Part shown: one piece after another, positions 5,738 through 46,773 of the stretch
Layout of the letters: each line of letters opens with the position of its first letter
How positions within the stretch are numbered: the first letter of the stretch is position 1
NCBI RefSeq assembly: GCF_900177375.1
Contig: NZ_FWZU01000009.1
Span: 1-55,809, forward strand
DNA from: Desulfovibrio gilichinskyi
GTDB taxonomy: Bacteria; Desulfobacterota; Desulfovibrionia; Desulfovibrionales; Desulfovibrionaceae
Direction: 5' to 3'
Length of the DNA stretch: 55,809 nt
Made by a program: the position numbers and the translations under genes
Notes under the pieces: generated by a model
The model's database searches: none
What the model saw: only the letters and a program-made list of their open reading frames with translations
What the model was told of the DNA's origin: nothing

Positions 5738-8700
5738 TTATATACAGGGCTTAGACGGTTGTGAAATATACTTATTGCTAAGTAATTGTAAACTTTCCTT
5801 TATTTCTTCTAGAATGTCCGTCACACTATCATCCCTATATAAAATTGAATGTTCCAATCTCGCTAATTTATCTCGGCGGGCAGAGAGCCAGTTGAAAGAA
5901 CCTTCAACGAGTGTGTGATTATCGATAATGAGTGTCTTGTTGTGTAACCCCCTGGCGAAATGGAGTTTTGCTCCAGCTTGGCTAAGGAGTTCAGATACTT
6001 TTTCTAGTCTTTCTTTTTTGTACTGTGCGCCGGATAGTGCAAGCATCTCGTCTGCATATATTTTTATACTTACTCCGCGCTGTGTGGCTTCTTTAATTTT
6101 AGATAAAATACTGTCTGCTTGCAGAGCTTTCTGGCTCAAGAAAGGTGATACTATGAGCAGTTCTTTCTGAGCAGTCGTGAAGGCCTGTGAAAGAATATCT
6201 TGATGCTGTTCTAAGGTTGTCAAATGTTGAACAGGACCATTTGTTTGGCGTTCTACGAGCTTGAATCCTTCTAATTCATTTAGACCTTTGGTGAAATTTA
6301 AATGCTTTCCTAGAATCATGGAAGGCTTACAATCACCAGGCTGAAACATACTCATGTTACCGAAGACAAGGAAAGAGTGCTTTGCGCGCGAGACTGCGAC
6401 GTTTAGCATATTCAAGCCTCTATCAAAGAACGGCGTTGAAACATTGCCGGGGCCATATACAGGAGAGAACAGTATTATCGGTTTCTCAGCTCCTTGTAGC
6501 TTGTGAACTGTTCCAATGGTCATACTCTTTGCTTCTTCGGAAGGGAGCATGTCTTGCACATATTTTCGCAGTGTCGTTGCCTGCATAGTGAACGGGGTCA
6601 CAATGGCCAAAACATCTGATAGGGCATTAGCTTGATACCGTTCTAGAATTTTGCTGCGATTGTTCGCCATCCATTGCGAAATATTTTGGGCTTCATAGGG
6701 ATTATACCAACTACCATTACGCTTTTGTCCTGTGGACGGAATATGCGCATATCCAAGCTGTGGGAATAGATAAAAATCATCAGGCTCATGACAGGTAAGC
6801 GTTTTCATATGTGGATATGCGAGTTCTTTGCAGTAGCTGATAATGGTTTTATGGCATCTGCGGTGTTCAAGAAGGTGCATGCCACGTTCTTTTACTGGCT
6901 CTCCTGCAATCATGCATTGGTAGGGGGTCACCTGTTGGGCCATGAGCATAGCATTGCTACATGAAGCCGCAAGGTGCTTGGGGAGATCTTCATTTCTACT
7001 TGAGATGATCTTATTATGTAATAAGTTGCCGCGATCTATTGCTTCTGTGATGCCAAATACCGGCTCGATTTGATGAATATCTCCAACAACGAGAGCTTTC
7101 TTCGCTAGCGCAAAAACAGCAGCAGCTTTATCAGAACTGGATTGTCCAGCCTCATCTAAAATGAGCAAGTCAATGAATTCATATAATGGTTGCCCATAGG
7201 AACTAAAAAACTTTGGTGTCATGAATAATGTTGAAACAATGCAGGGCGTGAGCATTGATATCCGCTTTAATCGATCCTTTGTGTCCAGCGGTTTATCACT
7301 TTGTACACTTCCGAGTGCTTCCTCAAGCCATCTTGCCTCATAGTAGTGCACTGCAAGTAGGAATATTTCAAAGCGGTGCTTTGTGTCGATACGCTCAAGA
7401 AGTGCGTACAGACCATCCCGATCAAAAGCGGGAGTCATGCCTTCTGGAAGTTTAGATTCAAATAGGGAAATATTTGTATTGATTTCATCAAGGCGTGCAT
7501 TCAGCTCACATTTTTTTCTACGGGAGTCTGTAACTCTATTTTCAGTTGCGCTGACGAGGTTCATGTCGATAGCATAAGTTTGCTGCACTTCACTTAATTT
7601 CGCAGTCAGGTTATCATACACTTCCTGAAAATTTTCGGGATGTTTTTCAAACGAAATGTCATTTTTAATCAGAAATGCGTTTGCCTTCGCTCTTTTTTTA
7701 GTTTTTATAAAAGATAGGAAGCCAAGCATGCCGTACCAAAAAGGTTCTGATGTTAATTCCTCAGCTGCAAGTTGTATTTGATTTTTTACGATATTCAAAT
7801 AGGTAGCCGTTGCTTGAGCTGTTTTTTGGTGTTCGGTAAGAACTTGTTCCGTTTCGGAAATATAATTACCTATTTCGATAATATCTTTCTTCAACTCTGG
7901 AAGAGAGTTGCAGTCTTTTACGCATATTCTCCAGAGTTCTATAAGTTTTGTCATTTCTCCCGATTTATCTAAAATCTTCTCGCGTAAGCGAGATTGTATT
8001 GTTTGCAAAGTTTGTTTCTTAGAAGTCTGCTTCGGAATGCGTCCACTGTACTGAGTATACGCTTTAATAAAAGTTTTATACCCTTTGTCTAGAAAATCTT
8101 TTTCTTCTATGTGAGTAAAGTAACCTACTAATCTATAATGGCTGTCTACATATTTTATTGCAATAGAAAGATATGAGTCATTGAGGTCGCTACCTGGTTT
8201 ATTGTATTTTCCTTCAGATAAAGCATATGTACCAAGGCTCTTAATTTCTTCGGGTAACCACCTCCGTTCTAGTATGTTTTCGGACTCGGGTTTCATGATT
8301 GTTCCGAAGTCCCGAATAACATTAGTTACAGCCTGATTGTTGGAGGAGGTAGCCACAATGATTGGAGGAATCGCTTTTCCATCAGGGGCATCCAAAATTG
8401 ATTTTATCCATAATGATGCAATGGCACTTTGCAGCAGTGTGGTTTTACCTGTTCCTGGCGGGCCATTTACGGCTAAAACTTCTCCTTCGTGAGTTGAAAA
8501 AAAATGATGAATTGTCTGTCGTTGGCTTGGGCTAAGGCCGAAACTGTTGCTCATTTGTCCTAAATGGTGTTCCTCAGAAATGTGAGATTCTTCTTCAAGT
8601 GATAGCAAGGGGCGATTCTGTGCGGAAGTATTGAAAAGTGAAGAATATAGTGGAGGAAAGTCTTTAGAGTTTAACAGCTTATCATAAAGACGTTTTATAT

Positions 8701-9304
8701 TTGCTGCCGCCCCGCTTTGTGTTTCATTAGGGTTAACATAGGGCTTTGCAACAACAGCATAATCTATTCCTGAAATATTTAGATTTCCACCTCTTGATAT
8801 TCCCGTCAGTTCTTCCAGTGCAGTCATGAAAAAATTGTAAAGCTCATTCCATGGTAGCGAGTTAAAATCTTTGCGGTTGCGTGCAAAATAATCTTCTACA
8901 TCATCTGTGTGGGCCAATGTGTACTCTGAAGATGATACAATAGGTTTTAGATAGTCTCGGACCAACCATGGCATTCTAAACTTGTTAGGAGAAAGGTATC
9001 CATCCTTAGTTAGTCTGCAAGGAACTTGCATTGGGATGATAGTTGCCGGTGCATTTGAGTAACTGTTAGCTCTGTTTATTTTGCGCTGAAGCTGTACAGG
9101 TGCAATGGTAATACCTATTAGAGAAGTATTCTTTGGCTTTTTCTGAAATAATTTCTTTGTGTTTACTTCAGTCAGTTTACCGCTGCGCAATTCATCAAGA
9201 GAAAGTTCAAATTTGAATTCTCCTTTGACAGCACTGGCGGTAATGAGTTCATCTTCAAGTGTATCCTGAAAGTATTTAGTATATTTAGTAATATTGTCAG
9301 TCAT
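5738..9304 (-). CDS. SF1 helicase fused to PLD nuclease, 1188 aa; Mokosh type II (MkoC)-like
   Basis: Large helicase of the COG1112/Dna2-NAM7 (UPF1-like) type. Walker A GPPGTGKTT is near residue 283, Walker B LILDEAGQSS near 713, HRRCHKT follows, then TVHKLQGAE near 933 and NVAVSRAKHS near 970. After the helicase, residues ~1030-1180 form a phospholipase-D-like nuclease domain with the motif HNKTLIIDN...EGSFN near 1121. A single protein joining these two domains is the description of the anti-phage system Mokosh type II, whose MkoC is thought to act on phage nucleic acid. A long coiled-coil insert lies between Walker A and B (~430-640). Divergent from mcrB; a K+-channel gene follows. Confidence 0.75.
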   Translation of the reverse strand: MTDNITKYTKYFQDTLEDELITASAVKGEFKFELSLDELRSGKLTEVNTKKLFQKKPKNTSLIGITIAPVQLQRKINRANSYSNAPATIIPMQVPCRLTKDGYLSPNKFRMPWLVRDYLKPIVSSSEYTLAHTDDVEDYFARNRKDFNSLPWNELYNFFMTALEELTGISRGGNLNISGIDYAVVAKPYVNPNETQSGAAANIKRLYDKLLNSKDFPPLYSSLFNTSAQNRPLLSLEEESHISEEHHLGQMSNSFGLSPSQRQTIHHFFSTHEGEVLAVNGPPGTGKTTLLQSAIASLWIKSILDAPDGKAIPPIIVATSSNNQAVTNVIRDFGTIMKPESENILERRWLPEEIKSLGTYALSEGKYNKPGSDLNDSYLSIAIKYVDSHYRLVGYFTHIEEKDFLDKGYKTFIKAYTQYSGRIPKQTSKKQTLQTIQSRLREKILDKSGEMTKLIELWRICVKDCNSLPELKKDIIEIGNYISETEQVLTEHQKTAQATATYLNIVKNQIQLAAEELTSEPFWYGMLGFLSFIKTKKRAKANAFLIKNDISFEKHPENFQEVYDNLTAKLSEVQQTYAIDMNLVSATENRVTDSRRKKCELNARLDEINTNISLFESKLPEGMTPAFDRDGLYALLERIDTKHRFEIFLLAVHYYEARWLEEALGSVQSDKPLDTKDRLKRISMLTPCIVSTLFMTPKFFSSYGQPLYEFIDLLILDEAGQSSSDKAAAVFALAKKALVVGDIHQIEPVFGITEAIDRGNLLHNKIISSRNEDLPKHLAASCSNAMLMAQQVTPYQCMIAGEPVKERGMHLLEHRRCHKTIISYCKELAYPHMKTLTCHEPDDFYLFPQLGYAHIPSTGQKRNGSWYNPYEAQNISQWMANNRSKILERYQANALSDVLAIVTPFTMQATTLRKYVQDMLPSEEAKSMTIGTVHKLQGAEKPIILFSPVYGPGNVSTPFFDRGLNMLNVAVSRAKHSFLVFGNMSMFQPGDCKPSMILGKHLNFTKGLNELEGFKLVERQTNGPVQHLTTLEQHQDILSQAFTTAQKELLIVSPFLSQKALQADSILSKIKEATQRGVSIKIYADEMLALSGAQYKKERLEKVSELLSQAGAKLHFARGLHNKTLIIDNHTLVEGSFNWLSARRDKLARLEHSILYRDDSVTDILEEIKESLQLLSNKYISQPSKPCI

Positions 9305-9607
9305 AATTTTGTGTGTATTTGGGGTTCAATTTTTCCGGTTATCTGAAGGGCAGAAAAGCTAGCGCGGGAAATGTTTATTTAGCCTGTCCTTTTCCTATAA
9401 TTACCATATGATATTGTCTTTCTTTTTGCGTTAAGTTAAGGATTAAGTCAATGTTATGATTTTGGGTTGAATGTGCATTTAGAAAGAGTGGGAAGCAATA
9501 TTAAAAGATTGGACATATGTATCTTCTCTATTCTTGAAAGTGCTTAGAACGTAGTAGTTATTTATAAATATTATATACATTTTAAATATATATCCTATGG
9601 AGATAAC
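9305..9607. promoter_or_regulatory. Divergent promoter region between helicase-PLD gene and mcrB
   Basis: 303 bp without a supported gene. Very AT-rich close to mcrB, with GGAG 8 nt before its ATG. It must hold promoters for both directions; a TTGAAA at about 9534 is a possible -35 for mcrB, but no clear -10 at normal spacing can be named. A small open frame on the minus strand here lacks coding character. Confidence 0.35.
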
Positions 9608-35241: not shown

Positions 35242-36147
35242 AAGCGGCCCCCCTCAGATCCCGCTTGTTAAATTACATTGCCATTGCCGGAGTTGAAGCT
35301 TTTTTCTGGATATTTTTTTTAGGTGTTTTGAATATTCCGGAGAGTTGTTCCTTTACTTCATCCAACCCCCTGGATTTATGTAGATCATTAAAGTCAGTTA
35401 GCTTTTGGGTGCGTTCCTGTTCTGAGAATTTTGGAATCAAGACTATTCCGTCTACTCCTTTTGCTGCGGCTTCAGCTTTTTTCACACCCACATTTTCCAT
35501 AAGATGATAATCATTGTCCGCCATGAGCATGAGTTTACTTTGCGGGTACTTCTCATGCAGAGCCTTTGCGACCGGCTCAAGGTTGGAGGCATCAAAGGCG
35601 GAAGCTACGGGATGAGCTGTTGCCATGTGAACGCTGGCGGCGGTGGCATATCCTTCGGCTATGAGAATCGGGCTACCATTTTTGAGTTTATTTTCTGGAT
35701 CAATGACATGGAATGTTCCGGCTTTCTGCGCATTTTTTTCAAAGAATTTACCGTTTGGTGAGATCGTTTGAAGAGTGCGGATATTTCCATCCACATCTTT
35801 GCCGGGAATAACTAGATTGCCAAACTTGTCCTCTTTGAGTCCGTATCCCGGAACTCCTTTTTTGCTGAGGTAAGGATGCTGCTTATTTGCCGATTTAATA
35901 ATTCCATCCCATTTCTCTTTTGAAAGAGCGGCAGCGTTTGTATACTGTTCCTTAATTGCTTTTTCCCTTTCCAGCCTTGTCTGGGCGGCTTGAGCCTTTA
36001 ACTCTGTTTTTTGTTGATCGGTAAGAGTATGACCTTCAGCTTTCCAGTTCGCTTTGAGACCGGTTTTGTGGTTCTGGATGAATCCGGCAGGGTGGCCGTC
36101 AAGATATCCTTTGTAGGTTCCATCCTTAAAGTTTGGTTTTCCGTCAA
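35242..36147. repeat. Direct repeat copy 1 (906 bp) shared with 42431-43334
   Basis: From AAGCGGCCCCCCTCAG to TTTTCCGTCAA this block aligns base for base with 42431-43334, with scattered substitutions and one 2-bp gap. It covers the Toprim coding region and its 3' flank. Identity ends abruptly at both sides, the mark of a duplication rather than two diverged genes in place. Confidence 0.9.
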
Positions 36148-36178
36148 TTACCGGAACGCGGTATAAAGCTCCGTCCAT
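35273..36178 (-). CDS. Toprim-domain protein (ArdC C-terminal type), 301 aa
   Basis: It contains the Toprim core: LIAEGYATAASVHMAT (catalytic Glu), then LMLMADNDYHLMENVG (metal-binding DxD), with a helical linker KTELKAQAAQTRLEREKAIK before it. Toprim modules of this kind follow ArdC-type single-strand-binding/zincin domains or primases on plasmids; here the N-terminal ArdC part is absent and translation starts MDGALYRVPVIDGKPNF. It may be a free-standing gene or a truncated duplicate of 42462-44202. AAGGAA is 13 nt upstream of the ATG. Confidence 0.72.
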   Translation of the reverse strand: MDGALYRVPVIDGKPNFKDGTYKGYLDGHPAGFIQNHKTGLKANWKAEGHTLTDQQKTELKAQAAQTRLEREKAIKEQYTNAAALSKEKWDGIIKSANKQHPYLSKKGVPGYGLKEDKFGNLVIPGKDVDGNIRTLQTISPNGKFFEKNAQKAGTFHVIDPENKLKNGSPILIAEGYATAASVHMATAHPVASAFDASNLEPVAKALHEKYPQSKLMLMADNDYHLMENVGVKKAEAAAKGVDGIVLIPKFSEQERTQKLTDFNDLHKSRGLDEVKEQLSGIFKTPKKNIQKKASTPAMAM

Positions 36179-36335
36179 GATGGGTAGCTTTCCTTCAAAA
36201 CTCTAAGAATAGTATTTGCAATATTTCTTACTAAGTTTTTTAAAAGTTATTGACGTTGTTTTTTTGATAACATAAGAGTTATTGTTTTCATTAAAATGGT
36301 TATAAAGTGATTTTTATGCAAATTAAAACTATAAA

Positions 36336-36356
36336 ATAACTGAGAATTATAGATGG
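36336..36356 (+). promoter_or_regulatory. 21-bp leader shared with ATP-grasp gene (inverted copy at 39932)
   Basis: TAACTGAGAATTATAG plus ATGG ends in the start codon of the NTPase gene and occurs identically, inverted, at the start of the ATP-grasp gene 3.6 kb away. No similarity extends upstream. It could be a common operator, a shared translational element, or the end of a gene cassette. Confidence 0.6.
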
Positions 36357-38857
36357 CTTCACCTTCAAAAGTGCTCTCGCTGACAGGCAATGCTCATTTA
36401 CCTAAAAGGATCATGGGGACGCTTTGGCGTAACGATCGTCAGAAACATGTTCTGCTTGAAGGCCTCAGCGGATGTGGTAAAAGTGAATTAGGAAAAATAT
36501 GTGCTGACATTTGGCAAAAAGAGCATGGAAAAGTTTTTGTACTTACTGGGAATCCTGCTAGATCTAGGGAAAAATACTATCCCTTTAAAAATATGACTTC
36601 CTCAATCAGGATGGGGATCGATGAATTCTTTAGCCTAAAACCTCCAGCCTCTGTCCTAAATAAATTTGCTTTCATTTATTATCTATCAAGCTGGTTTTAC
36701 CAGTTGTTTCGTTTTGCTGAAAGACGCAACTTGTTTTCACTTAACGAAGACATTCAACCAATCGTTTACAATTTAATTCGCAAAGGAAGAAAGGGTAAAG
36801 TTCTACTCGTTCTTGATGATATTCAATGGTTTGATGAGAGTTCTTTAGAGTTTGTTTGGGCTTTGTTGTCACGCAAGTATGAAACGGTCTCACCGATGTT
36901 TAAGAATCTAAGACTTCTGATGATTCAACGAAGGCCAACCCAATCTCCGCCATTTTTCCCGAAAGCTATTGAAAGAATATATAGGTTAAGGGTTCATCAG
37001 GAGTATACCATTGCCCCCTGCACAAAAGATAATTTTCGGGATGTTTTTCTAGAGCTTACGGGATGGGATAGTCTTACAGATATACAAGCTATCAAGCTTT
37101 ATAACCTTATTGGTCCTCATCTTGAATTGATCAAACTTATTGGAAGCTTAAGCGATGATCAGAAATCAAACTATTTAAATAAATCAAAGAATAATGATAA
37201 TCGAATCATCAGATGTATATTAGATTATAAAATAGACACTATGAGCCAAGAAGCTGATTCTGTATTCTATTTCTTGAATACAATCGCAATAATGGGAGGT
37301 GAGTGTAAAACAAAAGAGTTAAGATGTATCGTCGAAGAAGTTTGCGACAGGTTTGAAGAGTGCTGTGATATAGTTAAAGAAAATAGGTTTATTTCATTTC
37401 AAGATGACTTTTGTAAATTTGCTCATGATGTATACCGTAAATATTTTACGCCTGAGAGCAACCATCAAAAACAAGATATATATGAAAAACATTTACTGTG
37501 TATAAAAAATACCGCACCTCATAATTATGCATTACGCTTTGTTACCGCTCAAAAGAGCAATGATACCTCTTTGAGCAAATCGTATCTTTTTTCTGCTTGG
37601 CTAAAAGAAGAATTACAAATGAAAAGTAGTTCAACAATTAATGTATTTAAAAAAGAAATATATCAATATGGTCTTGAAGGTATTACTTTAATTGTAGAAA
37701 AAGCGTTAAGATTAGCAAAGAATGGCAAGTTTTCGTATGCTATTGAAAAAATAGAAAGTGCACCTACAAAAATCCCAAGACTCATTGCCCTTGAATTAGC
37801 TACTTTGCAAGCACGTTGGATGGTTGAATCACGAGAAGTTGATAAACGTAAAACTGCGCTTATATATTTAGAGCAGATACTTGAAACAGCTCTCGAATTG
37901 CAAGAAGATGACGTGGCTAACCGAGCAAGATTTGGCATGTTATATCCCCTTGCCCTTACTGGAGACAGGATGAAGATTATGCAATTTCACAATCAACTTG
38001 CGGGAAATATTCAGCAAAAATGGGATGAAACAAAAGACGAATATTGGCTGTATTGGATGATGATTTTAGACGGTGGAGCTGATGCTTATTTTTCAACAAA
38101 AACGGCCCTTACCCATATCAAAAGTGCTAGTCAATTTTTTGGACCTAACGAGGGGGATGATTGGCCTAAGCATGCTGCTGAGTACTTTAAATGCAAGTCA
38201 AATTTGGGTGCAAGCTACGCGGAACTGGGCGACTACTCAGAAGCAGCAAAACACACAAAGCTTGCCCGAAATAGTTATGTTCGATTTTCTGCCACGATCC
38301 ACAGTTCATCAAGTTTGACTGATACCAATTATATTGCTCAACGATTCCGAGCTAAAGAAATTTCAGCGATGGAGGCAGCAGACGAACAGAGAGAAATGCT
38401 TCATGCTCTAGGTAATTCAGAGGATTTATCCTTTTCTGTAAATGCGCTAAGCGTGTATTTGGCTTTAGCTAATAAGAAGACTGAAGCAGTACATGAAATT
38501 GAAAAGGAATTACGACGCCTTAAGCAAAAAGACAAAGTTGAGTTCTACCCAACCTACTTGCTTAAATCATCACTTTGTCCGATAAAAGCTAGTCTTCACT
38601 CAGAATATGACGCCAAAGCTGAGTGGCGCGAGATGCTTAAACTTGCCAGAAAAATTCCCTACACAGACGTTAAGCTTTATCTTCGCAGGCATGAAATGTT
38701 AGCTGACTTTTGGAATGAGCCATATCAATGTGAGGATTTACTCTCTCGCTGGGACGAATATTTGTTTAGTTTCCCTCCTCAGGGAGATAGCAGGTGGCCA
38801 AGCCTACAGTATGGTTTTTATCTACCTAACTTATTCTTTTGGCGGATTCATGAATAG
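36353..38857 (+). CDS. STAND-like NTPase with C-terminal helical (TPR-like) repeats, 834 aa
   Basis: N-terminal ORC/AAA_16-type ATPase: Walker A LEGLSGCGKSELG near residue 40, Walker B KVLLVLDDIQWFDESS near 150-165, then RLLMIQRRP. Residues ~450-834 are helical repeats (ALELATLQARWMV, GASYAELGDYSEAAKHTKLA). STAND NTPases use such repeats to sense a ligand and switch on an effector; no separate effector domain is visible here. Convergent with the ATP-grasp gene (32-nt 3' overlap) and sharing its leader, so the two probably act together. AT-rich upstream region; weak Shine-Dalgarno. Confidence 0.72.
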   Translation: MASPSKVLSLTGNAHLPKRIMGTLWRNDRQKHVLLEGLSGCGKSELGKICADIWQKEHGKVFVLTGNPARSREKYYPFKNMTSSIRMGIDEFFSLKPPASVLNKFAFIYYLSSWFYQLFRFAERRNLFSLNEDIQPIVYNLIRKGRKGKVLLVLDDIQWFDESSLEFVWALLSRKYETVSPMFKNLRLLMIQRRPTQSPPFFPKAIERIYRLRVHQEYTIAPCTKDNFRDVFLELTGWDSLTDIQAIKLYNLIGPHLELIKLIGSLSDDQKSNYLNKSKNNDNRIIRCILDYKIDTMSQEADSVFYFLNTIAIMGGECKTKELRCIVEEVCDRFEECCDIVKENRFISFQDDFCKFAHDVYRKYFTPESNHQKQDIYEKHLLCIKNTAPHNYALRFVTAQKSNDTSLSKSYLFSAWLKEELQMKSSSTINVFKKEIYQYGLEGITLIVEKALRLAKNGKFSYAIEKIESAPTKIPRLIALELATLQARWMVESREVDKRKTALIYLEQILETALELQEDDVANRARFGMLYPLALTGDRMKIMQFHNQLAGNIQQKWDETKDEYWLYWMMILDGGADAYFSTKTALTHIKSASQFFGPNEGDDWPKHAAEYFKCKSNLGASYAELGDYSEAAKHTKLARNSYVRFSATIHSSSSLTDTNYIAQRFRAKEISAMEAADEQREMLHALGNSEDLSFSVNALSVYLALANKKTEAVHEIEKELRRLKQKDKVEFYPTYLLKSSLCPIKASLHSEYDAKAEWREMLKLARKIPYTDVKLYLRRHEMLADFWNEPYQCEDLLSRWDEYLFSFPPQGDSRWPSLQYGFYLPNLFFWRIHE

Positions 38858-39935
38858 CCATAATGTTTTCACGCCACAAGTTTGCGCCAATTATCGCCCC
38901 TAAAAGGTCGGTATACTCAATTCCTTCAAGCATGAAAGATTTTGGAAAAGCACTAGTAAATCTATTCAGGCCAGGATTTTCAGCAATGTCAAAAACATAC
39001 GGAGTTCCATCTTCGGTTATACGAAAATCAATCCTCGAGACGACAGACAGTTCTAGTAAGGAATGAATTTTTCGCGCTGTTCTTTGTAAACGTTTTATTA
39101 CTTCAATGTTTAAGTCGTTGGGAGCAGAGTACAGAATTCCATCACTTGTTTCGTGGTCTGTGGGGAGTAAAAAGTTTCTTTTTGGGAATTTCTTAATGTT
39201 AGGACGAACCTCAATTGGAGTTGGTAAGTGCAATTCTTGAACCTCTAGGATTGGTTGGTAGCATTCTTTTCCTGAAATAAACTCTTGAACGACTATTGGC
39301 TGAGATATCTCTTTGGAAATTGAATAGACATACTTTTCTAGTGAACTATCTACATATCTTACGGAGTTCTCTGTAACTCCCACTGAACAACATTCATAAG
39401 CGGATTTAACGATTATTTTCGTACCATCTTCGGGGTTAGAATTTGTCCTCCATCCAGATGCAAAGTGATATTCCCATAAGTTAGGGTGTGGTATGCCTGC
39501 AGCCTTAAGTATCTGTGTTTGAAAGAATCTATGCCAACTCATCACCATTCCTGACGCGGGTGTATTGCAGCAAGGTATTCCAGCAAACTTGCAATAACTT
39601 GGGATCATTACTCTTTTTGCAGGTCCAATTCCTCCAAGTCCAAGATAGAGCGCAATTTTGTATTCCCGAAAATTTTGATTTTTTAATCCAAGAACGGTGT
39701 CTTTCAAAAATTCAGCCTCAGACCGATATGTTTTTACATGAAATCCGAACTCAATTAACGCATTTTTGAATTCATCGATTTGAAAATCGTTGTAGCAACG
39801 TTCAGCAAAACTAACTTTCGTCAATGATTCGATGTCAGAGCAGTCTTTGATATGTGAAAAAATGAGTAAAACACTTATTTTTTCAGCAGACGCTTTTGTC
39901 TTATCGACCAACAACCGAAGCTCGTTAATATCCAT
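38826..39935 (-). CDS. ATP-grasp ligase resembling D-Ala-D-Ala ligase, 369 aa
   Basis: It has the ATP-grasp order of D-alanine-D-alanine ligases: GLGGIGPAKRV in the N-terminal lobe, an ATP-lid Lys in KIIVKSAYECCSVGV, QEFISGKECYQPIL, VVSRIDFRITEDG, and the metal-binding VFDIAENPGLN. Such enzymes join a carboxylate to an amine through an acyl phosphate. The chromosomal Ddl is normally in a cell-wall cluster, so this copy likely has another substrate (peptide, sugar amino acid or nucleotide). Its leader is identical to that of the convergent NTPase gene. Confidence 0.8.
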   Translation of the reverse strand: MDINELRLLVDKTKASAEKISVLLIFSHIKDCSDIESLTKVSFAERCYNDFQIDEFKNALIEFGFHVKTYRSEAEFLKDTVLGLKNQNFREYKIALYLGLGGIGPAKRVMIPSYCKFAGIPCCNTPASGMVMSWHRFFQTQILKAAGIPHPNLWEYHFASGWRTNSNPEDGTKIIVKSAYECCSVGVTENSVRYVDSSLEKYVYSISKEISQPIVVQEFISGKECYQPILEVQELHLPTPIEVRPNIKKFPKRNFLLPTDHETSDGILYSAPNDLNIEVIKRLQRTARKIHSLLELSVVSRIDFRITEDGTPYVFDIAENPGLNRFTSAFPKSFMLEGIEYTDLLGAIIGANLWRENIMAIHESAKRIS

Positions 39936-39952
39936 CTATAATTCTCAGTTAT
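39932..39952 (-). promoter_or_regulatory. Inverted copy of the 21-bp leader, at ATP-grasp start
   Basis: The minus strand reads TAACTGAGAATTATAG directly before ATGG, identical over 21 bp to 36336-36356. Together the copies bracket the convergent gene pair as an inverted repeat. There is no good Shine-Dalgarno in either copy, so the element may itself matter for expression. Confidence 0.6.
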
Positions 39953-39965
39953 CGATATGTCTCTA

Positions 39966-40889
39966 CTAGCAAATGTTTTTTCTTGGATGCTTTAAAGTAA
40001 GGATACTGCGTTGCGATGAAAGGCTGACATGAGTGTATATTTCTGTAACAGCAAGTGAACTATGTCACAGTAATGTTTGTATGTTTCTTATGTCTACACC
40101 GTTTTCAAGAAGCATGGTCGCAATGGAATGTCTAAACATATGCGGTGTAATATGTTCGGTCACTCCTGCAATGGTACAATATTTATTGATTATTCTGCGG
40201 ACCGATTGGTCTGAAAGGGGCAGACAGTCTCTATTTAGAAAAAATGATGCAGAATAAGGCAAGTATTCTTCATAAAGGTGAGCATACTCTTTTAAAATGG
40301 CTAATGATTTTTTTTCACATAGTGGTATTATTCTTTCTTTTTTTCCTTTTCCATGTATCTTAAGCACATTATTTGTTAAATCTATTTCATTAAATGTAAT
40401 GTTGCATAGTTCAGATACTCTTATTCCTGTTGAGAATAAAAGTTCTATCACTGCTATGTCTCGTGTTGCTTCTCTGTATCCTCTACTTTCAGATAAATAT
40501 TTATTTTTTTCCAAATATGCATATTTAATGATTCTATTTAGAGATGATTTTCGTATTGTTTTAGGTAAATCTTTTGACCTATTCAATTTTAAATGTATTT
40601 TTCTAAATGGAGTTGTATTAATAATATCTTCACGCTCAAGGAAAGTAAAAAAAGACTTAAGTGTTGCAATTTTTCTTTTAATACTTCTAGGTTTATATTT
40701 TGATGATAGGTATTTAATAAATTCTCTAAGAAATTCTTTATGTATGTCTTGAACACAACTATGATGTTTAGATGATCTATCTATAAATTGATCTAGGTCT
40801 TTTCCATATGCTTTTATAGTTAGCTTAGAAAGGTTTCTCTCTAGTTGGCAGTGTTGTAAGAACATTTCTATTGCGTAATTTAGTCTCAT
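39966..40889 (-). pseudogene. XerD-like tyrosine recombinase interrupted by TGA at its GH motif
   Basis: The SAM-like N-terminal domain (LERNLSKLTIKAYGKDLDQF) and catalytic domain are complete up to STGIRVSEL (Arg) and PHMFRHS (His, Arg). The codon for the conserved Gly of LGH is TGA (40067-40065). The frame stays open afterwards, reading HSSLAVTEIYTHVS with the His and the nucleophile Tyr, until TAG at 39968-39966. A single change from GGA explains it. The 274-aa product would lack the His and Tyr and be inactive. Without readthrough the segment is locked in place. Confidence 0.85.
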
Positions 40890-42430: not shown

Positions 42431-43334
42431 AAGCGGCCCCCCTCAGATCCCGCTTGTTAAATTACATTGCCATTGCCGAAGCTAATGATTTATTCTGGAT
42501 ATTTTTTTTAGTTGTTTTGAGTATTCCGGATAGTTGTTCCTTTACCGCATCCAAACCGCGCGATTTATGCAGATCATTAAAGTCAGTTAGCTTTTGGCTG
42601 CGCTCCTGCTCCGAGAACTTTGGAATCAAGACGATCCCGTCTACGCCTTTTGCTGCGGCTTCAGCTTTTTTCACACCTACATTTTCCATAAGATGGTAAT
42701 CATTGTCCGCCATGAGCATGATTTTGCTTTGCGGGTACTTCTCATGCAGTGCTTTTGCGACTGGCTCAAGATTTGAGGCATCAAAGGCGGAAGCTACTGG
42801 ATAACCAGTTGCCATGTGAACGCTGGCGGCGGTGGCATAGCCTTCGGCGATGAGAATTGGACTACCATTTTTGAGCTTATTTTCTGGATCAATGATATGG
42901 AATGTTCCGGCTTTCTGAGCATTCTTTTCAAAGAATTTACCGCTCGGTGAGATCGTTTGAAGAGTGCGGATATTTCCCTCCGTATCTTTGCCGGGAATAA
43001 CTAGATTGCCAAACTTGTCCTCTTTGAGTCCGTATCCCAGAACTCCTTTTTTGCTGAGGTAAGGATGCTGCTTATTTGCCGATTTAATAATTCCATCCCA
43101 TTTCTCTTTTGAAAGAGCGGCAGCGTTTGTATACTGTTCCTTAATTGCTTTTTCCCTTTCCAGCCTTGTCTGGGCGGCTTGAGCCTTTAACTCTGTTTTT
43201 TGTTGATCGGTAAGAGTATGACCTTCAGCTTTCCAGTTCGCTTTGAGACCGGTTTTGTGGTTCTGGATGACCGGCAGGGTGGCCGTCAAGATATCCTTTG
43301 TAGGTTCCATCCTTAGAGTTGGGTTTTCCGTCAA
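42431..43334. repeat. Direct repeat copy 2 (904 bp) shared with 35242-36147
   Basis: Same orientation as copy 1. The 2-bp shorter length is due to a deletion at 43270/43271 (GGATGACCGG here, GGATGAATCCGG in copy 1). Recombination between the copies would delete or loop out the 6.3-kb segment 36148-42430. Confidence 0.9.
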
Positions 43335-44202
43335 AGTCCAGAGTATAGTTCTTTGTTTTATCCGCACTCTGGCAGGCCAGGACAATTTCAAAGGGATCTT
43401 TTTCAAGGACTTTAACCCTGTTCTCCACGTAACTGAGGTGCTGATCCGGATCATGGCCCAGCCCAAGCTCTGAGCTGAGCATCCAGCTAGAGATTTCAGC
43501 GCGTAACTCTTCCTTGGCATATATTTCTGATCCGAAAGGACCGAATTCACGGTCCAGCCTTGATTCATGGCCTGTCCAGTGTCCGAGTTCGTGCAAGGCT
43601 GTGCTGTAATACTTATCAGAGCTTTCAAAGGCCGAATGCGGCGGGAGGTGAATATCATCGGTTGATAGCCGATAAAAGGCCCGGTTGCGCTGATCATGAG
43701 TTATGCTCGCACCGGATTTTTTCATAATGGATTCAGCTCGTTCGTCCGGATTCCATGATATTTCTCGGCCTTCCCATTCTGGTATTCCGTCAATCTGGCT
43801 GGCGTGGAATACATTGGAAAAGCGCAATATCGGTTTTGACAATTGAACTTGTTCAGTCTGTACTTTTCCTTCTTCATCACGAACTGGCTTATTTTTCTCA
43901 TCTTTAACCACATTAATCTGTGACATTTGCCAGAAGACAATAGTCCGAGATTTGGAACCCTTGCTAACCTGCCAGCCCTGAGATTCCGCTTGTTTGTAGG
44001 TCATGAATCTAGGGTCGTTCAGTCCGTCTGTTCCAAGCATGACTTGATTAATGCCACGATAGACGGTTCCGGAAACAGGGTTGAAGGCCGGCTGATACTC
44101 GCCCGGTTTCCACGGTCGTTGCCAAGGTGCAGTGCCTTCTTTTAATTTCTCAATGATATCTTCGGCGAATTTTTGATAGTATGGTGTTTTAGAGTTTGCC
44201 AT
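42462..44202 (-). pseudogene. ardC: ArdC-like antirestriction protein with Toprim domain, frameshifted
   Basis: N-terminal ArdC single-strand-binding domain (YYQKFAEDIIEKLKEG, APWQRPW), then a zincin-like metallopeptidase with HELGHWTGHE (HExxH), then a linker and Toprim domain (LIAEGYATAASVHMAT, ADNDYHL). ArdC proteins protect incoming plasmid DNA from restriction. A 2-nt deletion near 43270, seen by comparison with copy 1, shifts the frame so that the product ends near 43225 without Toprim. ATG 44202 has GGAGG upstream. The ArdC half alone could still be made. Confidence 0.82.
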
Positions 44203-44206
44203 GGTT

Positions 44207-44422
44207 TTAATCCTCCGGTTCAGGGGCTTTTTCAGCGTCAAACGGATCAAAAGAAGCGTCTTCGGCTTCTTCAAGGGAAATAGAGTTTTCCTCAAAAGCT
44301 CCCATATGTTCCGCTAATTCCTGATCAATTTCGATAGCCGCACCTGGATTTTCCGATAAATCTTTGTCGATTTGGTGCGCCTGTTCGTTCAGGAGTTTTT
44401 TGATTTCGGTTTGTTCGGTCAT
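44207..44422 (-). CDS. Small acidic conjugation-region protein, 71 aa
   Basis: Very acidic, helical (LSENPGAAIEIDQELAEHMG), with Pro-Glu-rich end APEPED. GGAG lies 8 nt before the ATG. It ends 4 nt before the ArdC-like start, so it is in the same operon. No known fold; comparable small acidic proteins accompany ArdC and TraF genes in mobile elements, possibly as DNA mimics, but that is conjecture. Confidence 0.55.
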   Translation of the reverse strand: MTEQTEIKKLLNEQAHQIDKDLSENPGAAIEIDQELAEHMGAFEENSISLEEAEDASFDPFDAEKAPEPED

Positions 44423-45139: not shown

Positions 45140-46773
45140 GCTGCGTCCTTCTGGATGTTTTTGGTCCAGTAAGTTTTGCGCCAGCCGCGTTTTGCGGTTT
45201 CACTGTTGAGATTCAGGTGGCACTTTGAGTCAATGGACTCAATCTCAAAATCACTCAGCGAGTTAAGCCAGCTTTCAAAATCTTGATTTTGTAGATCCTG
45301 TTCGGCTTTCTCCATTTTCTGCTTTTCAATGTTTTTCAGCTCAGCACGGGTTTTGTCGGCCTTCTTTGCATTTGCTAGAGCTTGCTCATTTGGAGTTAAA
45401 AACCCGGTAGGTCTGCGCCATGTTCCCTTTGATCTCAGAGTTGCGAATAGATAATTGCAGATTCCTTTACGGGCTTCCGGGAAGGTTCCATTTTCTAGTT
45501 CCCAGCGTGCTGCGTGCAAAGATTCTTCGATGTCGAGGATTGTTTCACCGAATGAAAGCCGGTGTTCGACGATCTGGCGGATCTGATCAGGACCGAATCT
45601 TTTTTCGTAGAGCCGGGGCCAGAGAATTTGGAAGTCATCAGTGCTGATTGATAATAACCGGCGCGCCCAGCGTTCCTCTTCAGATTCTTCAGAGTTAGAT
45701 AGATTTTTTATCTGTCTATCTAATAAGAGGGTATCCTGATACCGATCACCTTTGGTATCAAATGAGTTCTTTGAATTTGTGTTAAAGCTTGAAAGGCAAG
45801 GGATAACAGGCTGTTTTGAACATGATCCGGCATTGGTAACATGATACCGATCACCTTTGGTATCAAGATCGGTATCATTACGGTCATGATACCAGTCACC
45901 TGTGGTAACACTCGCCTGATACCGATCAGCATTGGTATCAGGTTGCGGTGGAAATGCTTTCAGGAGTTCCTGAATACGAGCAAAAGGTTCATGGTTAAGT
46001 TGCAGAATAATACCAAAGCGGGGGCCGCGATTGTGAATATTTTTAGAGTATATTCCAGTGTCATGGCCGTGTTTGATCACCCTGCGAACTGTGACTTCAC
46101 TGCAAGCAGCTTCTCTGGCAATAGACTGAATTACAAGACTTATTTCGTTTTGTGCAGCTTGTTTTGAGCATGAGCAGATGATACCGAACACTCGTTTTCC
46201 CTGATCGGATAAACGAGAAAATAAAGCATCAGCTTTATCTGATGAATTCAGCATAGCCTGCGCAGCAGTGTTAATTATTGAGCTTTGGCTCTGCCTGTTA
46301 CCAAAGTCTGTTTGATACCGATCAGCATTGGTAACATTTGGACTTTGATACCAATCATGATTGGTATCAGTCAGTAACCCGTATTCATGTTTAAACAGGC
46401 TTATAAAGTATTCACAGCGTTCCTTGTAAAGAATGATTACAGACCCGTGTCTACGGCCAGAATGATTGATTTCTCTATTAAAAAGTCCAGCTTTTTCACC
46501 TTTGGGTATAGTCCGCAATACACTTAGTTTACTGCATTTTGCTGTGTGCTGAAGACTGGATATGACAAGAGAATACGGCTCATCCATTGCTGGAGCAGAT
46601 TTAATAAGTGCAGCAAGTATCCTCCTGCCGGTTCCGGAGAGGGTATTATAAAAGGTGGTAATGTCACGGCGCATAAGCCTTTTCAAGTGATCGGTATCAG
46701 CATCTTTTTGATGCCGATCATAATTGGTATCAGAACCATTTGGTGGATAATATTCTTGTGCCGTTGAAGTCAT
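45136..46773 (-). CDS. Large helix-turn-helix-like mobile-element protein with peptide repeats, 545 aa
   Basis: Two similar DNA-binding-like units (residues ~35-125 and ~190-275) share a pattern: SGTGRRILAALIKSAP against SDQGKRVFGIICSCSK, LSVLRTIPKG against VTVRRVIKHG, and GRRHGSVIIL against GPRFGIILQL. They resemble duplicated winged helices, as in replication initiators or transcription regulators. The linkers repeat DTNADRYQ or DTKGDRYQ, encoded by palindromic DNA repeats. The C-terminal ~170 residues are charged and helical. It could be a plasmid initiator or autoregulator. The downstream TraF gene is translationally coupled. Confidence 0.6.
   Translation of the reverse strand: MTSTAQEYYPPNGSDTNYDRHQKDADTDHLKRLMRRDITTFYNTLSGTGRRILAALIKSAPAMDEPYSLVISSLQHTAKCSKLSVLRTIPKGEKAGLFNREINHSGRRHGSVIILYKERCEYFISLFKHEYGLLTDTNHDWYQSPNVTNADRYQTDFGNRQSQSSIINTAAQAMLNSSDKADALFSRLSDQGKRVFGIICSCSKQAAQNEISLVIQSIAREAACSEVTVRRVIKHGHDTGIYSKNIHNRGPRFGIILQLNHEPFARIQELLKAFPPQPDTNADRYQASVTTGDWYHDRNDTDLDTKGDRYHVTNAGSCSKQPVIPCLSSFNTNSKNSFDTKGDRYQDTLLLDRQIKNLSNSEESEEERWARRLLSISTDDFQILWPRLYEKRFGPDQIRQIVEHRLSFGETILDIEESLHAARWELENGTFPEARKGICNYLFATLRSKGTWRRPTGFLTPNEQALANAKKADKTRAELKNIEKQKMEKAEQDLQNQDFESWLNSLSDFEIESIDSKCHLNLNSETAKRGWRKTYWTKNIQKDAA
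45738..46732. repeat. Seven 23-bp palindromic repeats, GATACC-N10-GGTATC(A), inside a gene
   Basis: Units at 45738-45760, 45843-45865, 45888-45910, 45918-45940, 46314-46336, 46347-46369 and 46710-46732, with extra half-sites at 45867-45877 and 46690-46699. The arms are often 7+7 bp (TGATACC/GGTATCA); three units have one mismatch in an arm. Read in the coding direction they give DTNADRYQ-like peptides. Starts within clusters are 30-45 bp apart. They may be protein-binding sites (iterons) embedded in coding DNA. Confidence 0.75.

Follow-up and report, generated by a model that had tools for sequence, protein, structure and literature searches.

What kind of locus is it in which two unrelated genes face each other and each begins just inside one copy of the same perfect inverted repeat? 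The question is raised by a 55,809-nucleotide stretch of the Desulfovibrio gilichinskyi genome (contig NZ_FWZU01000009.1, positions 1 to 55,809; the window hereafter), in which a gene for a STAND-like P-loop nucleoside triphosphatase (NTPase) converges on a gene for an ATP-grasp ligase. An earlier note on this DNA had taken the repeat for a shared leader and the pair for a possible defence or signalling system. Our data suggest that the locus is very probably a two-gene cassette that is flipped and exchanged as a unit, flipping changing which of the two genes sits behind an outer promoter, and we read the repeat as two inverted sites for a tyrosine recombinase (core ATAA-N7-TTAT), not as a leader. 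If the repeat acts as such a site pair, the two window genes would alternate at one promoter.

The geometry described in the earlier note stood up to checking: the genes are convergent, their 3' ends overlap by 32 nt, and the two start codons are bracketed by an exact 21-bp inverted repeat (Table 1), which arose in none of 100 shuffles. No third copy is present in the window, even with up to 3 mismatches allowed, and the 20-mer left by removing the first base of the repeat has no third copy in the 3.96-Mb genome. An origin of the repeat by chance or as an operator is disfavoured by this copy search and the shuffles, as well as by the plasmid inversion and the variation from locus to locus described below. 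The window holds one orientation of the cassette, the segment measuring 3.6 kb.

Table 1. Positions in the window of the cassette, its sites and the adjoining features.
Feature	Position	Strand	Remarks
STAND-like P-loop NTPase, 834 aa	36353..38857	+	AAA_16/AAA_22, weak TPR; outer-side cargo gene in present orientation
ATP-grasp ligase, D-Ala-D-Ala-ligase type, 369 aa	38826..39935	-	recombinase-side cargo gene
Left (outer) site	36336..36356	+	15-bp core 36336-36350, ATAA-CTGAGAA-TTAT; STAND-like start codon 2 nt past core
Right (recombinase-side) site, inverted copy	39932..39952	-	core 39938-39952; ATP-grasp start codon 2 nt past core
Tyrosine recombinase, cassette family	40065..40889	-	PF00589; in-frame TGA 40065-40067; frame continues to TAG 39966-39968 beside right site
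Promoter-like element TTGACG-15 nt-CATAAG	36250..36276	+	putative; points into cassette
Conserved outer flank	36197..36350	+	92% to second G007 module; ends at site
Truncated Toprim-domain gene (context)	35273..36178	-	second copy within 42462-43697

Both families also occur together elsewhere, as the earlier note had proposed looking for, in the same convergent layout and with repeats at the start codons. Plasmids of Methylobacterium radiotolerans and Paenibacillus carry a convergent ATP-grasp/NTPase pair with a tyrosine recombinase and a perfect repeat at both starts, and two further genomes of the window's genus carry a convergent pair with start-codon repeats and a tyrosine recombinase; the repeats of the window, plasmid and genus-member pairs share ATAA-N7-TTAT. 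The recombinase abuts the ATP-grasp gene in the window and in Methylobacterium, and the NTPase gene in Paenibacillus and the two genus members; both orientations occur among related ATP-grasp/NTPase pairs. The ATP-grasp protein gave matches in 129 of 148 relatives, which beyond the first three have E-values of 1e-15 and weaker and fit ordinary ATP-grasp proteins; it gave none in a scan of genome contigs or in phages. The STAND-like protein gave one weak Chloroflexi locus (L033) in the contig scan, and a STAND-like profile was found in at least two of 395 phylum genomes (two candidates per genome scored). The second of these two, locus L048 of genome G445, lies near a DNA gyrase gene and has no core site, and was therefore not accepted as a module.

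The distribution of the recombinase was followed with the sequence from genome G007 against 247 genomes of the family (E <= 1e-60, at most 8 candidates per genome scored), stretches of up to 18 kb being read around the recombinase loci where contigs allowed. This gave 28 matches in 20 of the 247 genomes, corresponding to 27 distinct loci, two of the matches belonging to one decayed gene; eight of the 28 contain stops, some perhaps before the start codon. A paired inverted site was present at 22 of the 27 loci (one being the second G007 module), and at the remaining five (L087, L089, L094, L095, L096) the assembly ends or has a gap at or just before the site. The repeat is present in L097 with unclear cargo, L088 has one mismatch in the proximal core, and the contig of L076 begins inside the distal arm. 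Among 395 genomes sampled from the phylum (at most 5 candidates per genome scored) the recombinase was found in three, the window's own included, where L110 has the site pair and L111 ends 63 bp past the match. All plasmid loci (10/10) have the pair. A stricter site pattern, ATCGATAACTNNNAATTAT, occurs 22 times in 12 of the 247 family genomes, all 12 lying among the 20 with the recombinase, and its reversed form occurs in none of the 247. At four other tyrosine-recombinase loci of the window's own genome no core lies within 150 nt (a fifth control, L045, was unaligned). The 7-bp middle of the core has 13 versions among the 27 tabulated loci and is identical in both arms of each, and a pattern search that did not require pairs returned five inverted pairs on the same contig with one middle each, the G007 pair being the duplicated tail of L036 described below. 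Cassettes with paired sites and no recombinase directly beside them were seen in genome G008 (L127, 3354-5082; L128, 3406-4516) and next to the L086 module (a second cassette, 7787-9431); in those of L127 and L086 a CDP-alcohol phosphatidyltransferase faces a protein of unknown type.

Inversion itself is seen between the plasmids of Aliarcobacter cryaerophilus ATCC 43158 and M830MA, which have the same recombinase and flanks (99.8-99.9%) and in which the segment between 17-bp repeats is inverted. The inverted segment (L102:8969-12426 = L103:4425-969; 3,458 bp, 99.9% identical) ends at the 17-bp repeat and encodes an ATP-grasp protein of the D-Ala-D-Ala ligase (Ddl) type together with a protein of 823 residues that matches AAA models weakly and has links to the NTPases of other cassettes. 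At these breakpoints the repeat behaves as recombination sites, and the idea of a shared leader finds no support. Junctions of both orientations are present in L036 (G007), where the start of the ATP-grasp gene adjoins the recombinase tail at one place and, past an N gap, the outer flank at another. A contig end is found no more than 65 bp from five of 29 recombinase loci (L087, L089, L095, L096, L111), where rounded contig counts would predict 0.034. Exchange is visible where homology stops and resumes at the sites around different cargo (L102 vs. L104, L107 vs. L109), and cargo differs exactly between the sites in the window compared with L036, L112 and L077, and in L037 compared with L079 and L081. 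These comparisons of assembled sequence demonstrate both inversion and exchange in relatives. The Streptococcus megaplasmids L105-L109 have one recombinase locus and, across the five plasmids, three different cassettes.

We propose that an XerC/D-like tyrosine recombinase serves a two-gene cassette bounded by inverted sites, crossover presumably falling within the 7 bp between ATAA and TTAT, so that the 3.6-kb segment would turn around. As each gene starts immediately inside its site and the two converge, inversion would exchange the flanks of the two genes, swapping the gene behind the outer flank with the gene behind the recombinase gene. At present it is the STAND-like gene that lies on the promoter-like outer side, with the ATP-grasp gene behind the recombinase. 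Cassettes also change places as units, one recombinase locus holding different pairs in different strains. The adjacent recombinase presumably catalyses the inversion, and cassette orientation would set expression. For 26 of the 27 proximal genes and 22 of the 27 distal ones, the start codon (longest-frame or annotated) falls between -2 and +25 nt relative to the core, and the AGGA within the 7-bp middle might act as a ribosome-binding site in L036 and L047. The putative promoter of the outer flank, with its 15-nt spacer, is not listed by a promoter scan with spacers of 16-18 nt. TTGAC and ATAA are common to ten genus flanks, which were picked by eye; of the 14 genus flanks with sequence, 10 have TTGAC at a distance of 80-86 nt from the site, and on the recombinase side it occurs in none of 27. 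Promoter-consensus matches inside the window cassette are fewer than in shuffles, and the promoter-like element lies outside it.

The recombinase gene beside the right arm had been overlooked in the earlier note. Its frame ends 13 nt from the arm, and its product is of the tyrosine type, not the serine type of Gin/Hin-type systems. An uninterrupted relative elsewhere in the genome gives 80% to the query to which the window copy gives 88%. Since the window copy is interrupted by a stop, the cassette may be locked, or now slow.

Several observations weigh against a flipped, exchangeable cassette as the general explanation. The window itself has one orientation only and a stop within its recombinase, and the strain-level inversion is seen in one plasmid pair, in which the M830MA annotation splits the STAND-like gene in two. 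Faulty assembly could account for the mixed junctions and contig breaks, and the basis throughout is assembled sequence. The stricter site pattern is missing from 8 of the 20 recombinase genomes, and the agreement of the arms within a locus arises partly by construction, because the arms were mostly detected as inverted repeats. In Streptococcus the recombinase gene is directed away from the cassette. Four of the 14 genus flanks (L078, L082, L084, L085) lack the TTGAC element, and outside the genus only L093 of 12 flanks has it near 80-86 nt, so that for part of the class the outer promoter is presumed.

With these points in mind, the inverted sites might be nothing more than ends for the capture and swapping of cargo, inversion being incidental and of no regulatory consequence. 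Mobility of this kind is consistent with the different cargo found beside similar recombinases, with homology that stops at the sites, with the cassettes at L127, L128 and the L086 module that have no recombinase directly beside them, and with a promoter-like element that is not universal. It does not, however, need start codons close to the core, as they are in most proximal and distal genes, and the mixed junctions and contig ends suggest that inversion is still going on; we consider it unlikely.

If a flipped cassette is accepted, the cargo becomes the next question. The window NTPase matches AAA_16 with an E-value of 4e-7 and 31 bits, just below the Pfam cut-off of 32.6, and matches AAA_22 (also under its cut-off) and TPR more weakly; "STAND-like" is a label only, since no STAND-class Pfam model matches the 834-aa protein. 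The window ATP-grasp protein has the Ddl C-terminal Pfam domain at 68.3 bits against a cut-off of 24 and lies below the NCBIfam Ddl cut-offs (best 68.4 bits vs. 243). A search of solved structures returned Ddl-type proteins and one L-amino-acid ligase for the ATP-grasp protein, and TPR and P-loop/AAA-type matches among the best 60 of 337 for its partner. Across the class, 18 loci have P-loop/STAND evidence on one side (from Pfam, often under cut-off; from homology or a visible P-loop for L034-L037) and a recombinase reading toward the cassette. The NTPase lies on the outer side in 13 of these (window, L034, L047, L078, L079, L081, L083, L086, L090, L091, L092, L093, L112) and beside the recombinase in five (L035, L036, L037, L076, L102; L103 holds the L102 cassette the other way round). 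The recombinase of L109 is itself reversed, and no such NTPase was found in L077, L080, L082, L084, L085, L088, L105, L107, L110, L127 and L128 or, by record annotation, in L104. Cassette enzymes include ATP-grasp, serine hydroxymethyltransferase (SHMT)-like, class-III aminotransferase with sulfotransferase, glycosyltransferases, methyltransferase, radical SAM and carbamoyltransferase, and the partners in some other cassettes match NB-ARC, NACHT or nSTAND models. The cassette NTPase of L078 (4113-7448) has an N-terminal Mrr-type nuclease domain, which we take to be an Avs-like layout, and a NACHT-type cassette protein of L112 (2742-6221, G007) has a weak N-terminal SIR2-type match in PADLOC.

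All-against-all phmmer of 71 cargo proteins revealed six cassette types in which both partners recur together: an ATP-grasp/NTPase pair in the window, L034 and L036, and in L035 via L036, with the L037 NTPase lacking a link (type 1); a second ATP-grasp/NTPase pair in L079, L093 and L102 (type 2); SHMT/NTPase in L047 and L109 (type 3); GNAT-type/methyltransferase in L104 and L105 (type 4); CDP-alcohol transferase/unknown in L086 and L127 (type 5); and glycosyltransferase/AAA in L083, L090 and L091 (type 6). Types 1 and 4 span phyla by named records. The L102 partner is linked by phmmer to two other cassette partners, and hhalign of the STAND-like profile against it was not significant. Joint recurrence is not the rule throughout, as the partners of the pentapeptide proteins (L080, L082, L084) show no link, and methyltransferases are found again beside different partners. 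Where both partners do recur, this argues for their acting together, and inversion of the cassette argues against their equal expression in one cell. As a function, a division of labour between maker and sensor would fit, as would alternative strategies of defence or variation of the surface or of metabolites. More speculatively, and with a low likelihood in our estimation, the cassette could be a horizontally traded cell-type switch driven by the recombinase, one orientation giving makers of the enzyme product and the other the cognate sensors of a signal, toxin or kin mark, so that a clonal population would divide into the two, with the cassette type as a private channel; such a switch would explain why enzyme and sensor are inherited jointly even though just one of them has the outer promoter in either orientation.

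A co-expressed defence or signalling pair with the repeat as its shared leader or operator, as envisaged in the earlier note, appears quite improbable. The joint recurrence of enzyme and STAND-like partner and the presence of restriction-type genes and an AAA_13 gene in the same window would suit it, as would weak, partial PADLOC matches in three of eight relatives scanned, namely the SIR2-type match of L112 (E 3e-5 to 1.5e-4), Avs2 in L091 (0.003, ~40 residues) and one mad8 (0.008); the Avs2 match is the single Avs match among ten scanned proteins. The repeat, however, lies at the inversion ends and varies between loci, and PADLOC gave no family for either window cargo protein, so that a role in defence was not borne out for the pair. 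Transposon terminal repeats or an assembly artefact can be set aside as extremely improbable, for although a relaxase, a Mu-like transposase and ArdC are encoded around the module, no transposase domain appears in the Pfam results for the cargo genes, at the loci examined the repeats do not enclose the recombinase, the same layout is present in plasmid records, and the plasmid inversion speaks against it.

The surroundings of the cassette bear on a further claim, that it lies inside a duplicated segment. This was right only in part: the end of the Toprim-domain gene is present on either side of the module (35242-35541 and 42431-42730, 91% identical). ArdC and Toprim parts lie in two overlapping frames at 42462-44295, with the truncated Toprim copy (35273-36178) across the module; the G007 relative has a single 733-aa gene upstream of its recombinase. 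A RAMP-superfamily protein (PF03787; 41356-42207) is encoded between the recombinase and the ArdC/Toprim genes, and a 32-nt repeat occurs six times at 45730-46370 inside a 545-aa open reading frame without a Pfam match. Defence-like genes lie at 5738-26013 (an AAA helicase with a PLD domain, an SNF2 helicase, an N6/N4 methylase with ResIII/RE_endonuc of type III restriction type, and an AAA_13 protein). In a second module of the window's genome the genes for an SHMT-like enzyme and an NB-ARC/TPR protein face each other, and the repeat measures 26 bp.

In the G segment of phage Mu with Gin, and in Moraxella with Piv, inverted sites flank an inverting segment, changing which of two coding sets is expressed. 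The window cassette resembles these systems in having inverted sites around a segment whose inversion would swap the expressed coding set, and differs from them in its tyrosine recombinase, its two unrelated proteins, start codons just inside the sites and exchangeable cargo. Integrons resemble the present class in that cassettes are exchanged at a fixed locus served by a tyrosine recombinase, but integron sites are in direct orientation, whereas the paired sites are inverted in the loci examined here and each cassette holds convergent genes. Avs/STAND anti-phage proteins are P-loop NTPases with a TPR-like C-terminus; the window NTPase has the same arrangement but no PADLOC match. Recombinase-driven inversion of convergent genes is already known (PMC12529663, in excerpt): the P segment of Escherichia coli e14, 1,797 bp with two opposite genes and short inverted repeats, is inverted by PinQ, and its inversion inhibits adsorption of phage T2. 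As described in that excerpt, a serine recombinase acts there inside both genes to give chimeric proteins, unlike the window cassette. Invertons are driven by recombinases at short inverted repeats (PMC11868660 and PMC5903667, both in excerpt), the first of these excerpts also listing the invertible pilin locus of Moraxella; invertons turn a promoter, whereas the window cassette turns a coding pair. In the literature searched, which was short of most subscription papers and bioRxiv, we found no description of cassettes of a tyrosine recombinase in which an enzyme is coupled with a STAND-like or other partner and the whole is flipped and exchanged as a unit.

If true, this reading would add a widespread form of phase variation: a pair of genes is turned next to a flank that stays in place, and entire pairs are exchanged in the manner of cassettes. 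It would also tie uncharacterised STAND-like and unknown proteins to specific partner enzymes, and thereby offer testable hypotheses on what they sense.

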